Shown here one piece after another: positions 3,550-25,884 of a stretch of DNA of 25,884 bases. Numbering within the stretch: the first letter of the stretch is position 1; each line of letters starts with the position of its first letter. The position numbers and the translations under genes are program-made. This DNA is from a virus. The notes beneath the pieces were generated by a model. It worked only from the letters and a program-made list of their open reading frames with translations, made no database searches and was not told the DNA's origin. The stretch is taken from the IMG/VR virus record IMGVR_UViG_3300042564_003044, positions 1-25,884 of that record; one strand, 5' to 3'.

Positions 3550-4827
3550 TTATATATTATTTGTTGTTGTATTTAAATTATTAATAGGATTATTATTCCA
3601 ATCTAAACAATATGCTAATATTGAAGCTCCTAAATAACTAGGATTCATTCCTGTTGTAAAATAAGCATTTCCAGTAAATTTACCAAATGTATTACCTAAA
3701 AAACTATCATTTCCTGCTTTACAGTAATAAAAATTACCTGTTGACTCGTTAGTACCAAAACTTTCTTCTCCTGCTTCACAATTATAAAAACTGCCTCCTG
3801 CAATCAAATCTGGCCAACCTTGTTTACCTGCACCAAAAGAATTATTTCCACCTTTACAGTTTTTATAAATGCTATTAGCAATATTTGCACCAAAGGATTC
3901 ATCTCCTCCTACACAATTAATAAATGAATTGTCATCACTATTCTTAACTGAAAAAGAATTATCTCCTGCTTTGCAATTATTTAATTGAGATGTTTCTATA
4001 GTAGCTGATTCTCCAGGTACATTAGTTCTTCCAAAAGAACCCCTATCAGCAGTACAATTTGTTAATGTAGAACCAAAAATTCCCTTTTCACATCCAAAAG
4101 ATTCCATTCCTGATTCGCAATCATTTAAGATTGATTCAGGAATTACAAAAAAACCAAAACTTTGAGCACCAGCTAAACAATTTTTTAATACACTACTTTC
4201 TAATTGATAACCAAATGAAAAATCTAAAGCAGTGCAATTTTCTAATGTAGAACTTATTAATATTTCTTGATTACTTGAATCCCCAAAAGAACTAAATCCT
4301 CCTTTACAATTTTTAAAATTACCTGCAACTTTACCCTCAAAAGTAGTATTTGAAAAACTGTAATCTCCTCCAATTATATTTTCAAAATAATTATTATCGA
4401 AACCATCACTTATAATAAGTCTATTATTTAAAGTGGTTAAATTAAATCCTTTTATTTTAATATCTGAAGTAGTAACTTTTATAGCAGTATTACTATTAGA
4501 ACAAGTTAAAAATACATCTGCATCTCCTGTTAATGAAATTAAATCTACATAAGGAGTATCCATTTCTAAAGTATCAAAAAAATCATACTTTCCTGGGGCT
4601 ACTAATACAGTAACTCTATTAGTATCAGACAAAAGTTGCCCATTTGGAGTCAAAGTTTTTGCAAAAGCTAATTTGTCTACTAATTCAGTACCATTACTAA
4701 AAGTATTAAAAAGATTACCATAAACTACTATATAATTATTACCTTTTAGTTGCTCTTTTGCTTCTAGTTTATCTTCTAATATTAATAAACTATTACCTAA
4801 ATCTGAGTTTGTTATTAATGTTGCCAT
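3550..4827 (-). CDS. solenoid (beta-helix) tailspike-like protein, copy B, about 11 coils
   Basis: 425 aa. Residues 1-30 form a short N-terminal part without the longer head seen in copy A. Residues 33-110 (YIVVYGN...RVTVLVAPGKYDF...LEMDTPYVDLISLTGD) match the entry strands of copy A. From about residue 148 the chain repeats NCxxGxxSFG with a 19-26-residue period (Cys at about 174, 198, 217, 237, 258, 285, 305, 324, 350, 369), as expected for a right-handed parallel beta-helix with a Cys/Gly/Ser-Phe ladder. The C-terminal cap (YCLDWNNNPINN) matches copy A. Such proteins usually trimerise into tailspikes for adsorption; enzymatic activity cannot be judged. It follows the 197-aa gene by 31 bases. 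Confidence 0.75.
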   Translation of the reverse strand: MATLITNSDLGNSLLILEDKLEAKEQLKGNNYIVVYGNLFNTFSNGTELVDKLAFAKTLTPNGQLLSDTNRVTVLVAPGKYDFFDTLEMDTPYVDLISLTGDADVFLTCSNSNTAIKVTTSDIKIKGFNLTTLNNRLIISDGFDNNYFENIIGGDYSFSNTTFEGKVAGNFKNCKGGFSSFGDSSNQEILISSTLENCTALDFSFGYQLESSVLKNCLAGAQSFGFFVIPESILNDCESGMESFGCEKGIFGSTLTNCTADRGSFGRTNVPGESATIETSQLNNCKAGDNSFSVKNSDDNSFINCVGGDESFGANIANSIYKNCKGGNNSFGAGKQGWPDLIAGGSFYNCEAGEESFGTNESTGNFYYCKAGNDSFLGNTFGKFTGNAYFTTGMNPSYLGASILAYCLDWNNNPINNLNTTTNNI

Positions 4828-5869: not shown

Positions 5870-6874
5870 TTATAATTTATTTTGAGGAGTAAATCCTTGA
5901 TTATTTGGTTCTCCATTTCCATCTACACAATATACAGTTTTACCTGCCCCAGTTACTGTTTCAAATGTTCCAGAAGTTAAACGACAGTAATATAAAAACC
6001 CATCTAGTGTTCCAAAACCTCCAAATGAGGTAGATTCACCTATGCAGTTATTAAAAATACCGTTTGCTGTTCCATTACCTCCAAATGAAACAGAAGTTCC
6101 TGTACAATTTGTATATGTACCTGAAGATACTCCTCCCATAAGTGACCCTCCAAATGAATAAGCTCCTGCTTTACAATTTTCATATATTCCTGAAGATGTT
6201 GGAAACGTTGTGCCTCCTCCAAATGAATAAGCTCCTGCTTTACAATTAATAAAAGTACCTGAGGATCCACCGTTTCCTCCAAATGAAAAATCACCTCCTA
6301 CACAATTTATATAAGTTCCTGCTGCATTAAACACTCCAAATGAATTATTTCCTCCCGTACAATTTTCTATTTTTAGTAAATTTAAAGAAGGATTAGTTTT
6401 AAATTGTTTAGTTTGTACATCTACTCCCTTTACAAAAACATCATTTGCAGTTATAAAAATTGAACCTTTTTCAGGAGTTGATAAGACAAGAGGAGCATTA
6501 AAAACAATACTTCTGTTTCCATCTAAAGACACTAAATCAATAAAATTAGTATCCATAGTAAATACATTAGATTCAAAATTATAATTACCTGGGCCAGCTA
6601 TAATCGTAATTCTTTTTGTTGATGTAGGTAATCTCATTTGAGCAGCAGTATAAGCTGCTTGAAGTTCTGCAGCATTTTCTATATCTGTACCATTAGCAGC
6701 CACATAAATATATTGGCTACCTTCTAATCCTCCTCCAAAAAGAGTTCCTAATTCTTCTACAGTTATTTTATCTGTAGAATTTGCACCTACTCTTACAATA
6801 GGTAAAACATCCACTACGGGATTTATTTGACTTCCTAATACATTAGAAAGCTCTGTTATTTTTACACTTGACAT
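5870..6874 (-). CDS. solenoid (beta-helix) tailspike-like protein, copy A, about 6 coils
   Basis: 334 aa. Residues 1-45 (VKITELSNVL...VVDVLPIVRVG...DKITVEEL) are the N-terminal head pattern of many phage tail-fibre proteins. Residues 55-125 (YIYVAANGTDIENAAEL...ITIIAGPGNYNF...FTMDTNFIDLVSLDGN) lead into a solenoid whose coils repeat NCxxGxxSFG from residue 171 to about 284 (Cys at 172, 191, 211, 234, 257, 277), ending with a YC-x-D-x-N-x-x-P-x-N cap near 315-325. Two coils share an identical 31-bp DNA segment (6148-6178 and 6217-6247, 69 bp apart), evidence of recent coil duplication. It is homologous to the 425-aa protein but has about five fewer coils. Likely role: adsorption spike on the virion. 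A second minus-strand open frame inside it (6040-6294) is an out-of-frame product of the repeats. Confidence 0.78.
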   Translation of the reverse strand: MSSVKITELSNVLGSQINPVVDVLPIVRVGANSTDKITVEELGTLFGGGLEGSQYIYVAANGTDIENAAELQAAYTAAQMRLPTSTKRITIIAGPGNYNFESNVFTMDTNFIDLVSLDGNRSIVFNAPLVLSTPEKGSIFITANDVFVKGVDVQTKQFKTNPSLNLLKIENCTGGNNSFGVFNAAGTYINCVGGDFSFGGNGGSSGTFINCKAGAYSFGGGTTFPTSSGIYENCKAGAYSFGGSLMGGVSSGTYTNCTGTSVSFGGNGTANGIFNNCIGESTSFGGFGTLDGFLYYCRLTSGTFETVTGAGKTVYCVDGNGEPNNQGFTPQNKL

Positions 6875-7492: not shown

Positions 7493-8668
7493 TTATAGAC
7501 ATTCAAGTTCAATTGTTTTACCACAAGGACCTGTTGTAACAAAAGCATTCAAAGTATTTTCTACTGCAGTTTGAGTAGTAGTATGTGCTTCTGGAACCAA
7601 GATAGTTGTGATAAAGTTTGGATTCCAATTCATACCATTTGCATTCTCATTTGGAGAAACTGTATGATAACCCAATACATATTGGCAATATGTTTGATTA
7701 CAATCAACTAACAAGTTTTTAGTTCTTGATACACCCAATTGAGCATAGTAAGGAGCTCCTGTAGTTTCAACTTCGCTGTTTAAACCATCGAAACCTGTAC
7801 CACCTGGCATTTCATTATACTCTTCCCATTGTAATTTAGCACCATGACCTTCTGGCAATTGCATTCCTGTATTATCTACAGAAACACTTGTAGAATTTGG
7901 AGCCCATCCTGAATTTAAAGTAACTTGAATAGATCCAATAGTATATCTATCAATAATAGCTTCTGCTGGAGGGAAACATCCACAATCTGCAGTGTTTACT
8001 TTGAAAGTAACTTCGATTGCACAAGAAAATCCTGGAGCAGGAACGATTGGTGCAACTGCATCTGCTGAAGTTTTTACACTTGCCACATATTTTGACAATA
8101 ACTCATTTGACTCAATAGCAGCTTTGAATTTTAAAGCAACTTCTTCACAATCATGTGTGTAGTCGCAATCTCCATCACATGTAGGACAATCTTCTGACTG
8201 TACTGAAATGGTTTCTACATGGTATCTATTTTCTGGATAGAAAAAGTTTAATGTAGGATCATTTACTTTGATACCAATTGAGTAGTTTTGAGCACAATCT
8301 GTACAAGAAAAGTTAAACTTAGCTTTGTTAGAAGCACCTTCTTGAGGAGCTTTAACACTTGCATTATCCATTGAACATGAAGTTAAAGTTTCTCCTGCTG
8401 CTAATCTAACTCCGTCTGAAGAAAGTTTAGAAGCGTTTTTGTCAACTCCAATAGCAACATAAATTGATTTTACTCCTACAATAGTAGTAGCATCTACTGC
8501 TGTATTAGTTTCAGCATTGTAAAACCCGATTTGACCTGGTCTTAAAAGATATTGTTTAGAAGTAGCATTGTAAAATGCAGTACCAGTTGGAACAATACCA
8601 TATCCTGTCGCACTACCTGCAACTGCAGAAGTAGGAAGGAACATTTGTTTTTGAATTCTTGATCTCAT
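7493..8668 (-). CDS. probable abundant virion structural protein, 391 aa
   Basis: Begins MRSRIQKQMFLPTSAVAGSA. Residues 20-80 (GYGIVPTGTAFYN...LRPGQIGFYN...VGVKSIYVAIGV) form a beta-rich N-terminal domain. The middle has Cys clusters (FSCTDCAQN, EDCPTCDGDCDYTHDC near 155-175, DCGCFPP near 228), and the rest alternates like beta sheets to an ECL end. No signal peptide or membrane segment. I do not recognise a named family; a tail or capsid-accessory virion protein is inferred from size, position after the head-completion genes, and the private strong terminator at 7403-7438, typical of highly expressed structural genes. It starts 22 bases after the 234-aa gene. Confidence 0.65.
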   Translation of the reverse strand: MRSRIQKQMFLPTSAVAGSATGYGIVPTGTAFYNATSKQYLLRPGQIGFYNAETNTAVDATTIVGVKSIYVAIGVDKNASKLSSDGVRLAAGETLTSCSMDNASVKAPQEGASNKAKFNFSCTDCAQNYSIGIKVNDPTLNFFYPENRYHVETISVQSEDCPTCDGDCDYTHDCEEVALKFKAAIESNELLSKYVASVKTSADAVAPIVPAPGFSCAIEVTFKVNTADCGCFPPAEAIIDRYTIGSIQVTLNSGWAPNSTSVSVDNTGMQLPEGHGAKLQWEEYNEMPGGTGFDGLNSEVETTGAPYYAQLGVSRTKNLLVDCNQTYCQYVLGYHTVSPNENANGMNWNPNFITTILVPEAHTTTQTAVENTLNAFVTTGPCGKTIELECL

Positions 8669-8690
8669 TTTGATTTTTATTTAAAGTTTG

Positions 8691-9395
8691 TTAAATTTTT
8701 GATATATTTAATATTTTATTTAATTGTGATTCAAAATCTATAGTATTACCTACATCTCTCATTGCGATTAATACTGCAATATCTATGATTTTGTTTGATT
8801 GGAAAGTAGAGTTTACTTCTATATTTCTTTGTACAGCTAATGTTCCATCAGGTAGCTTATAAGTACCTCCTCCATTAATAAAATCTTGGGGATTCCCTGG
8901 ACGTAAAGGTTTTCTTATATAAGTGATAAATACTTTATCAATATCAAACCCTTCATAATATAAGTATAATTTATTTCCAGACATATCCATGTTTACTCTT
9001 TCAAAAGTATAAGAAGAATTAAACATTGGATCATTTGCGTATATATCGTCCTTTTGTATGAAAAAATTCTTAATTGTTTTCTTTGGACAAGTAGCTGTAA
9101 AACATACTGAATACGACTCTAAATATCTATAATAATCTGAAGGAAGATCTGCTGTGTAATAATCATCGTTAATCTTAGTTACAGCAAGAGGGAAGTCTTT
9201 TATTTCCAACTCTCTAATATCATCTCTTCTCTTTTGATTTATTTCTAGCTGTTCACAAATATTTTCCAACCATATTATATATGCTTCCCATAAGTATTCA
9301 TCAATCTGAGGCACTAAGAAATTAGCATTCCTTAAACCATCTACTTTGTTAGCATGTTGTTTAAACTTATAATGGGCATCTTTAATTGAAAACAT
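8691..9395 (-). CDS. putative head-tail connector (ring/adaptor) protein
   Basis: 234 aa. The helical N-terminal half (KFKQHANKVDGLRN...VPQIDEYLWEAYIIWLENICEQLEINQKRRDDIREL) followed by a beta-rich middle (YYTADLPSDYYRYLES...) and a helical end is the layout of head-tail adaptor proteins that sit below the portal. The family is not proven by a diagnostic motif. Its ATG overlaps the stop of the 303-aa gene by one base (TAATG), so it is translationally coupled. Its place downstream of MCP fits a head-completion role. Confidence 0.55.
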   Translation of the reverse strand: MFSIKDAHYKFKQHANKVDGLRNANFLVPQIDEYLWEAYIIWLENICEQLEINQKRRDDIRELEIKDFPLAVTKINDDYYTADLPSDYYRYLESYSVCFTATCPKKTIKNFFIQKDDIYANDPMFNSSYTFERVNMDMSGNKLYLYYEGFDIDKVFITYIRKPLRPGNPQDFINGGGTYKLPDGTLAVQRNIEVNSTFQSNKIIDIAVLIAMRDVGNTIDFESQLNKILNISKI

Positions 9396-23575: not shown

Positions 23576-24097
23576 TTAAAAATCTTTTGCTAAGGCAGCA
23601 TAATGTGTCTTATCAAATAATCCTTGTACATCTTTTTTAATAATCTTGCCATTAAAAGACAAATATGGGTTGAATACCCAGTAGTTATGGTGATTTTCAA
23701 ACCGATCATACACCTGAAACTTCCCAATAACACCTAATTTAAATAATTTTTCTATTATAGTGAGAATTTTTCTCCTGTCTACATTAAAAAAATCTGCTAA
23801 TTCCTTCATAGTACTCTCTGGCCTTAATGGTTCCAAACTATTTGTATAGGCATGGGCCATCATAGACATCTTATAAGCCACTTTAAACTCAACATCTGTA
23901 GTTTGAGTTTCTAATAGTAGCCATGCTTTTGTAAAAAACCTAGAATAACTCTCTGCACTAATAAAAAAATTCATTGTAGGGTCTTTAGGTTTTTTAACTT
24001 CCTTTTCTTTACCCTCAATCTCTTTTACCTCTCCCGTCTCTAAATTAATTTTAGCTGCCTTTTCGTTATGTTTTAATTTTATTACTTTCTCGTACAT
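23576..24097 (-). CDS. winged-helix DNA-binding protein, RepL-like
   Basis: 173 aa. The N-terminal 40 residues are charged and probably flexible. Residues 45-90 are a helical bundle (FISAESYSRFFTKAWLLLETQTTDVEFKVAYKMSMMAHAY). Residues 96-127 form a helix-turn-helix (STMKELADFFNVDRRKILTIIEKLFKLGVIGKF), followed by the wing (YDRFENHHNYWVFNPYLSFNG), where YW-x-x-NPYL-x-F-x-G (139-150) matches plasmid RepL and MarR-like proteins. It may start replication or regulate transcription, perhaps acting on the repeats in the control region to the right. Co-directional with the early small genes. Role inferred. Confidence 0.6.
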   Translation of the reverse strand: MYEKVIKLKHNEKAAKINLETGEVKEIEGKEKEVKKPKDPTMNFFISAESYSRFFTKAWLLLETQTTDVEFKVAYKMSMMAHAYTNSLEPLRPESTMKELADFFNVDRRKILTIIEKLFKLGVIGKFQVYDRFENHHNYWVFNPYLSFNGKIIKKDVQGLFDKTHYAALAKDF

Positions 24098-24692: not shown

Positions 24693-25076
24693 TTATTTGT
24701 TTTTTGATTCAATATATTTTTTTGCCACTATCTCAAATACCTCTAATAATTCTGGGTAATCTCTAACATCTTTCAAAATATTTTTTAACTGATTTTTTAT
24801 TTCAAGATCAGTTTTTGATAAATCTTCCCTAAATTCTCCATTCTCTTCCTGAACACTATACAACTTTGTAAAATGATTTTTATAATATCCTCCATTCTGT
24901 TGCCCATTAGCATTATCATCTAACCATTTCACCTCTACAAACCTGTGTCCTTCGTAACAGTCATTAGTTACTACTACAGTAGCATTATTTTTTGCTAAAT
25001 AGTCTACTCTCAAATTGCTTTGTGAAGGATTAAACACTAAAACATCTCCCTTACTATACGTTTTGTTACTATACAT
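24693..25076 (-). CDS. SH3/KOW-like small protein, 127 aa
   Basis: Residues 5-70 (YSKGDVLVFNPSQS...ATVVVTND...HRFVEVKWLDDNA) alternate as a small beta-barrel, starting with the KGD-x-V turn of SH3/KOW-like domains; NGGYYKNHFTKLY closes the barrel. The rest is a charged helix (EDLSKTDLEIKNQLKNILKDVRDYPELLEVFEIVAKKYI). It is the first gene left of the control region, downstream of the -7 box at 25099-25106. Function unknown. Confidence 0.62.
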   Translation of the reverse strand: MYSNKTYSKGDVLVFNPSQSNLRVDYLAKNNATVVVTNDCYEGHRFVEVKWLDDNANGQQNGGYYKNHFTKLYSVQEENGEFREDLSKTDLEIKNQLKNILKDVRDYPELLEVFEIVAKKYIESKNK

Positions 25077-25098: not shown

Positions 25099-25129
25099 CA
25101 AAGATACAAACTTTTTTACAAATAGCAAG
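25099..25129 (-). promoter_or_regulatory. promoter for the leftward small-gene operon
   Basis: Minus-strand TATCTTTG (25099-25106) matches TAnnTTTG; CTTG (25126-25129), one mismatch from TTTG, lies 19 nt upstream. Transcription would start about 17 nt before the ATG at 25076. The promoter overlaps two of three TTTACAAAT repeats, so it is likely regulated. Confidence 0.55.
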
Positions 25130-25167
25130 ATTTATTTTACAAATTATAAGCATTTTACTTTACAAAT
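25115..25167. repeat. three copies of TTTACAAAT, about two helical turns apart
   Basis: Identical 9-mers at 25115-25123, 25136-25144 and 25159-25167 (spacing 21 and 23). The last two extend to TTTACAAATTATAA. Regular spacing next to the first leftward promoter suggests binding sites for a regulator. Confidence 0.65.
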
Positions 25168-25172
25168 TATAA

Positions 25173-25224
25173 CCCCCTAAGTTACCCCCTAAGTCACCCC
25201 TCAAGTTCACCCCCTAAGTTACCC
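25173..25224. repeat. four tandem iteron-like repeats (CCCCCTAAGTTA type)
   Basis: Copies at 25173-25184, 25185-25196, 25197-25209 and 25210-25221, followed by a partial CCC. Consensus CCCC(C/T)(T/C)AAGT(T/C)(C)A, 12-13 bp each, directly adjacent. C-rich runs are rare in the rest of this window. Such arrays occur in replication origins and in operators. They contain no spacers, so this is not a CRISPR. Confidence 0.75.
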
Positions 25225-25268
25225 ATTTTTTAAAAACCCCTCAACGAAGAAATGCGGGTTTCAGCGTG

Positions 25269-25315
25269 TCAAAAGTACAAAAATGTACACGAAAAGTACA
25301 AAAATGTACTTTTGA
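25269..25315. repeat. paired palindromes within a larger inverted repeat
   Basis: The 18-bp AAAAGTACAAAAATGTAC occurs at 25271-25288 and 25292-25309, 21 bp apart. Each copy holds the dyad GTACA-N4-TGTAC. The whole unit is framed by the 10-bp inverted repeat TCAAAAGTAC/GTACTTTTGA (25269-25278, 25306-25315). This looks like a tandem operator for a dimeric regulator. Confidence 0.78.
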
Positions 25316-25450
25316 CCCCTGGGAACCCTTGATTTTACTGGGCACTTTTTTTAACCCTTCTTTATTTATTTATGTGCAAGTTTTAAATATCCAAAATAGC
25401 CTAAAAAATCACCCAGAAAAAACTAAAAAAAGATCCATACCACCCCCCCC

Positions 25451-25575
25451 TATTTTATTTTTTTTACATCAGGCTAAAATCATGTATAAGGATAAAAAAT
25501 AATCATCACCCCCATATCACCATTTTATTTTTTTTTTACACCACATACCCAAAATGGTTTATGAGGATAAAAAAT
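25451..25575. repeat. two diverged copies of a 50-55-bp direct repeat
   Basis: Copies at 25451-25500 and 25521-25575 share ATTTTATTTTTTTT, then ACA, AAAAT, TTTAT or TGTAT, and end AGGATAAAAAAT. Each is preceded by a C-rich stretch ending in CCCC or CACC. Non-coding on both strands. The T-run then A-run layout gives strongly bent or easily melted DNA, as in origins. Confidence 0.6.
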
Positions 25576-25613: not shown

Positions 25614-25640
25614 ATTTTGAAATCCCCCCTTTAAATTCAG

Positions 25641-25884
25641 TGTGGAGCGTGTTTGCCAACTGAAAAAAAGATAGGCGGAGTGGGTACGGAGGACGTGGCG
25701 GAGGTGGGAGGGAGCGGAGCGTGGGAGTAGTTATGTATGTAGGTATGTATTGTATGTACTACTGACGGAGGGAGGGAGGAGGGAGGGAGGCTTTCGGGAG
25801 TGGTAGATATACATATAAAGCAATTCATATAAAATTGCAATGTAGTAGCGTGGGTATTCGGTGCGTTACATTAGTACACAATAC
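25641..25884. other. G-rich low-complexity terminus, no gene seen
   Basis: Composition switches to purine-rich, G-rich sequence unlike the rest of the window: GGAGG/GGGAG runs (25676-25728), TATG/TATGTATG repeats (25732-25759), then a run of GGG tracts (25767-25790, four GGG separated by 1, 4 and 1 bases, a G-quadruplex match). A minus-strand frame (25637-25840) has only low-complexity Pro/Ser/His and no promoter, so I do not call it. It may be a genome terminus, an origin element or a chimeric/assembly end. Confidence 0.6.

Follow-up and report, generated by a model that had tools for sequence, protein, structure and literature searches.

A probable lineage-specific C-rich minisatellite beside a conserved non-coding core in the divergent region of a crAss-like phage

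Gene arrangement at the locus

The window analyzed here is the complete 25,884-base IMG/VR record IMGVR_UViG_3300042564_003044 and, judged from its protein matches, is a fragment of a crAss-like phage. Its TerL is 34% identical over 97% to that of Cellulophaga phage phi14:2, its TerL, portal and capsid match PHROG families, and portal and TerL also match crAss-like records, giving the related terminase, portal and capsid proteins expected of Crassvirales. The two divergent arms (replication versus structural) of this order are visible on long relatives, where the opposite arm carries replication genes (DNA polymerase A and a DnaB-like helicase). The window contains the structural arm alone, with all main genes directed leftward, and part of the 1.1–1.5 kb gap that precedes the divergent replication arm. 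The following features were located, from left to right:

23576–24097, minus strand: 173-aa protein, probably a winged helix on a low-confidence model; tests for RepL were negative
24693–25076, minus strand: first leftward ORF, 127 aa, no family match
25099–25128, minus strand: putative leftward promoter of the Bacteroidota type (consensus match), TTG (25126–25128), 19 nt, TATCTTTG (25099–25106)
25131–25149, no strand: A/T-rich direct repeat TTTAYTTTACAAATTATAA, first copy, between promoter and array, partly degenerate in more distant relatives
25154–25172, no strand: second copy of TTTAYTTTACAAATTATAA, 23 bp from the first
25173–25224, no strand: C-rich 12–13 bp tandem array, 4.3 copies, a putative lineage-specific minisatellite (Tandem Repeats Finder, shuffles, relatives)
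25225–25395, no strand: conserved non-coding core adjoining the array
25256–25328, no strand: larger imperfect inverted repeat around the dyad pair, 33-nt arms, 73% complementary
25271–25288, plus strand: 18-bp direct repeat AAAAGTACAAAAATGTAC, first copy, with the 14-bp dyad GTACA-N4-TGTAC
25292–25309, plus strand: second copy of AAAAGTACAAAAATGTAC, 21 bp from the first, with the same dyad
25476–25500 and 25551–25575, no strand: A/T-run repeats, two 25-nt copies, poorly conserved by column comparison
25638, no strand: turning point of the intergenic DNA from C-rich (left) to G-rich (right)

A 69-bp tandem repeat (6103–6247, 2.1 copies, score 176) lies inside a 334-aa ORF (5870–6874), whose protein has recurring NC..G..SFG motifs in common with the ORF at 3550–4827. 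In three relatives (L114, L115 and L116) the TerL matches cover about 3.3 kb rather than 2.3 kb, which suggests that their terminase gene is interrupted by an intron or insert.

The consensus of the Bacteroidota housekeeping promoter is TTTG ... TAnnTTTG. On the minus strand, 22 bp separate the end of the match TTG-N19-TATCTTTG from the first leftward ORF's start codon. Relatives were recruited with the 173-aa protein and an exact stretch of the conserved core, which gave ten contigs spanning the same intergenic region, seven of them read at length. The -7 box was found at the same place in all ten (one base is changed in L010), and the promoter boxes keep their position although the first gene behind them differs among relatives. 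In the closest long relative (L011), a NUMOD-domain, homing-endonuclease-like ORF (8409–8792) separates the promoter from the first leftward gene that is shared. A scan for terminators found none.

Structure of the C-rich array

The sequence-only reading had described four adjacent 12–13-bp copies with a C-run core, about 100–150 bp upstream of the first leftward gene, and both points held. The copies are in register at 25173–25221 (CCCCCTAAGTTA, CCCCCTAAGTCA, CCCCTCAAGTTCA and CCCCCTAAGTTA, spaced 12, 13 and 12 bp) and are followed by ACC. Tandem Repeats Finder reported 25172–25224 with a period of 12, 4.3 copies and a score of 76, which no dinucleotide shuffle of the intergenic DNA equalled in 1000 trials. 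For periods of 10–15 it was reached in none of 300 whole-window shuffles; at some other period, 10 of the 300 do reach it. The core letters of the array have no second occurrence anywhere in the window.

The measured distance to the first leftward ORF is 97–148 bp, and that to the start of the 173-aa ORF is 1.08 kb. The array lies 67–125 bp upstream of the leftward -7 box, between the putative promoter and the conserved core. The A/T-run repeats claimed for 25451–25575 are also real, in the modest form of two copies that are 84% alike.

A motif common to phages was considered as well and rejected. Other matches in the collection were mostly coding-looking repeats in unrelated phages, together with three MAG contigs; a 22-nt string of the array fell, in unrelated phages, mostly within stretches resembling coding repeats.

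Copy number among relatives

Array copy number was four in the window, two in the two nearest relatives (L011/G001 and L016/G006) and zero in the eight others, so that it differs between close relatives as in a variable-number tandem repeat. The two-copy array was present in two independent samples, and the four-copy array in this one assembly only. Both flanks of the array site are conserved despite the differences in copy number, and the -7 box is separated from the first dyad by 128–130 bp without the array, 151 bp with two copies and 176 bp with four. Only 2 of the 52 array columns are invariant, compared with 62 of 76 in the block holding the dyads.

On these comparisons, the array is best read as a young, lineage-specific tandem repeat (minisatellite) that is ordinary in kind. 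It would have arisen by growth through duplication rather than by loss. Lineage-specific arrays can still be functional.

Several close-relative contigs break in or near this intergenic region. The near-identical contig L002 ends just before the array (its position 1 corresponds to window position 25137), and the window end at 25884 and the left end of G006 are further cases, perhaps because the repeats vary within the population.

The conserved core and its paired dyads

In the core adjoining the array, 132 of 171 columns were invariant in ten sequences (25 of 30, 62 of 76 and 45 of 65 in its three parts), and identity among relatives was 82–96% (89–96% where aligned). At fourfold codon sites, TerL and the 173-aa gene share just 49–56% identity with distant relatives. 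The retention of the core beside a variable array, while fourfold sites have diverged this far, suggests that strong selection acts on the core and that the array is a recent addition that varies in copy number.

The window and the seven longer contigs each have a single dyad pair, always at the core. Searches of phi14:2, crAss001 and p-crAssphage found no paired dyads, and the more distant contigs found via TerL gave no close match. From its conservation, the 18-bp pair is a better candidate than the array for a protein-binding site.

As single-stranded DNA, the larger dyad has a more stable fold than its shuffles (z -3.9), and a 106-nt stretch of the core surpasses all 200 shuffles. The consensus fold of the core contains no compensatory pair changes despite this, which makes a DNA site more likely than an RNA. 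A structured RNA in the region was rejected on the same ground, and no Rfam family scored above its gathering score. A 78-aa coding ORF across the core (25266–25502) was likewise rejected, having no family match and a GTG start that is GGG in most relatives.

These properties would suit an operator or promoter for phase-specific transcription, unrelated to replication, for instance a site for a regulator or a hairpin promoter used by the virion RNA polymerase. The core sits between divergent promoter-like boxes, the paired dyads resemble a double operator, and the 106-nt stretch has the fold just described; however, the hairpin pairs lack compensatory changes, and the literature searched yielded no promoter motif for the virion RNA polymerase. 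Such a role for the core is a serious possibility, to which we give somewhat less than an even chance.

GC skew and the question of an origin

The array and A/T-run repeats together had been taken for a replication origin, with a GC-skew peak as the expected sign. The place fits this claim, being a divergent gap where the skew changes sign and, in seven contigs, the cumulative skew is minimal 200–420 bp to the right of the core start. For the parts named the claim is not supported: the array is absent from eight relatives and there is no cluster of DnaA boxes.

Gene direction changes where the cumulative skew is minimal, and at fourfold sites the main gene blocks show little skew, in either direction (about -0.12 to +0.11), which indicates that the skew is mainly a coding effect. 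In G002, the skew tracks genes that reverse direction again. As the signal is not seen at fourfold sites, GC skew was discarded as proof of an origin; in these genomes it reflects mainly the direction of the genes and counts as weak evidence of an origin.

Inside the non-coding gap, the skew passes from -0.35 to -0.42 on the left to +0.20 to +0.55 on the right in all 11 sequences, and the largest C-to-G switch of each of the seven contigs falls here. Codons do not explain this switch.

To the right of the turning point, positions 25640–25884 and the matching part in all relatives are rich in G and change quickly, with runs of the GGGCGGG and TCTGTCTG types. Where relatives extend further, this G-rich stretch measures about 480 bp or more and separates the C-rich half from the rightward promoter. 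Ahead of the rightward genes lies a hairpin whose stem varies while its flanks (GGGTAAGGGT ... CACCCATTTAAGCCT) are conserved, about 730–930 bp to the right of the dyad and outside the window (seen in G002/L012, G003, G004, G005, G007, L004 and L010). A similar element with a strong fold (z -5.0) is present in phi14:2 near 98.33–98.42 kb (L052 2262–2451), and the hairpin could be an origin element or a structured RNA shared more widely among crAss-like phages.

A recent review calls the start of replication in crAss-like phages unknown (PMC10136315), and papers on such phages predict their origin, or the boundary between replichores, in regions of this type (PMC10136315, PMC12386605). An origin could lie in the region that holds the array, with the two 18-bp repeats as initiator sites and the C-to-G switch marking the start of two forks. 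The dyad pair is conserved and single-copy with a spacing of two helical turns (21 bp), the non-coding switch is common to all the sequences compared, and DNA polymerase A and the DnaB-like helicase are encoded on the other arm. Against this stand the near-zero fourfold-site skew and the DnaA-box search, which found no cluster in the window's intergenic DNA (no exact box and one with a single mismatch). Moreover, phi14:2, crAss001, p-crAssphage and the distant relatives yielded no such pair and have a weaker switch, so such an origin would be clade-specific. An origin in the region, as distinct from the array, is a tentative reading, to which we give about one chance in three.

A bolder version treats the 1.1–1.5 kb gap as a novel kind of origin or switch in crAss-like phages, in which initiator-bound dyads spaced 21 bp apart and the strongest C-to-G switch would launch bidirectional forks or transcripts, and array copy number would tune the distance to the structural promoter. 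We regard this as unlikely.

The 173-aa protein and an iteron role for the array

A RepL-like winged-helix protein had been proposed 1.1 kb to the left of the array. The position is right and the winged-helix order recurs in a low-confidence model (H-H-E-E at residues 93–142, mean pLDDT 52); the RepL assignment found no support. The 173-aa protein gave no match above the cut-off to the Pfam RepL profile (PF05732), and hhalign with p-crAssphage RepL gave 1% probability and no alignment, both profiles being shallow. Winged-helix matches in the PDB had E above 0.006 only. A DNA-binding role is plausible. Identity of the protein is 84–97% within the clade.

The array would act as iterons if a phage initiator, possibly this protein, bound the 12-mers and opened the nearby A/T-rich DNA. 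Iterons usually have a period of 17–22 bp, which exceeds the 12 bp of the array. Short tandem repeats do adjoin A/T-rich DNA here, where the gene arms diverge and the cumulative skew is minimal, and origins have been predicted in such regions (PMC12386605, PMC10136315). The array is nevertheless missing in eight relatives, which have kept the remainder of the region as well as a 173-aa protein of 84–88% identity, whereas iterons would be expected to be conserved among relatives sharing a replication system; no exact copy of the DnaA boxes that often adjoin iterons was found in the window's intergenic DNA, and the protein has no RepL match. An iteron role is very improbable, and the repeats are probably not origin machinery.

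Very improbable as well is a G-quadruplex on the leftward-coding strand, for which the five minus-strand G-runs and a local G4Hunter-type score of 1.6–1.7 speak, but the strict quadruplex pattern is not matched on that strand, the G-runs are too few in the two-copy relatives, and the rest have no array.

Interpretation

Taken together, the comparisons make it probable that the array is a minisatellite that grew from zero to two to four copies in one small crAss-like lineage. Late genes of these phages are likely read by host RNA polymerase according to a review (PMC10136315), and this polymerase would read the leftward (structural) promoter. A protein dimer or pair of dimers may bind the two core dyads spaced 21 bp apart, and the bound protein may control the leftward promoter, start replication, or both. 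The array would be dispensable, altering at most the spacing between core and promoter.

The comparison of relatives focuses the origin search on a conserved core of 170 bp that contains two identical 18-bp sites; the array itself gives no answer. The dyad pair and the C-to-G switch merit the attention given to the array.

Comparison with known systems

The RepL of p-crAssphage (KP06_gp88, PF05732) resembles the 173-aa gene in adjoining the divergent region. It differs in lying on the other arm and in matching PF05732, and the two proteins do not align.

The leftward promoter resembles Bacteroidota housekeeping promoters in that TTG-N19-TATCTTTG precedes the first leftward gene of the window, although the window site is known as a consensus match only.

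Like the divergent region of other Crassvirales (crAssphage, crAss001, Lera phage), the gap separates oppositely directed replication and structural arms and shows a change of skew sign; an origin has been predicted in or near this region in some members (PMC10136315, PMC12386605). The paired dyads set it apart from phi14:2, crAss001 and p-crAssphage, and neither the array nor the strong C-to-G switch is seen in the divergent regions of those phages or in distant relatives.

As in the iteron origins of plasmids and phages, short direct repeats adjoin A/T-rich DNA, but the array is of 12-bp period, lineage-specific and missing from most relatives. The conserved 18-bp repeats, spaced 21 bp apart, come nearer to the iteron pattern than the array does, although there are two copies only.
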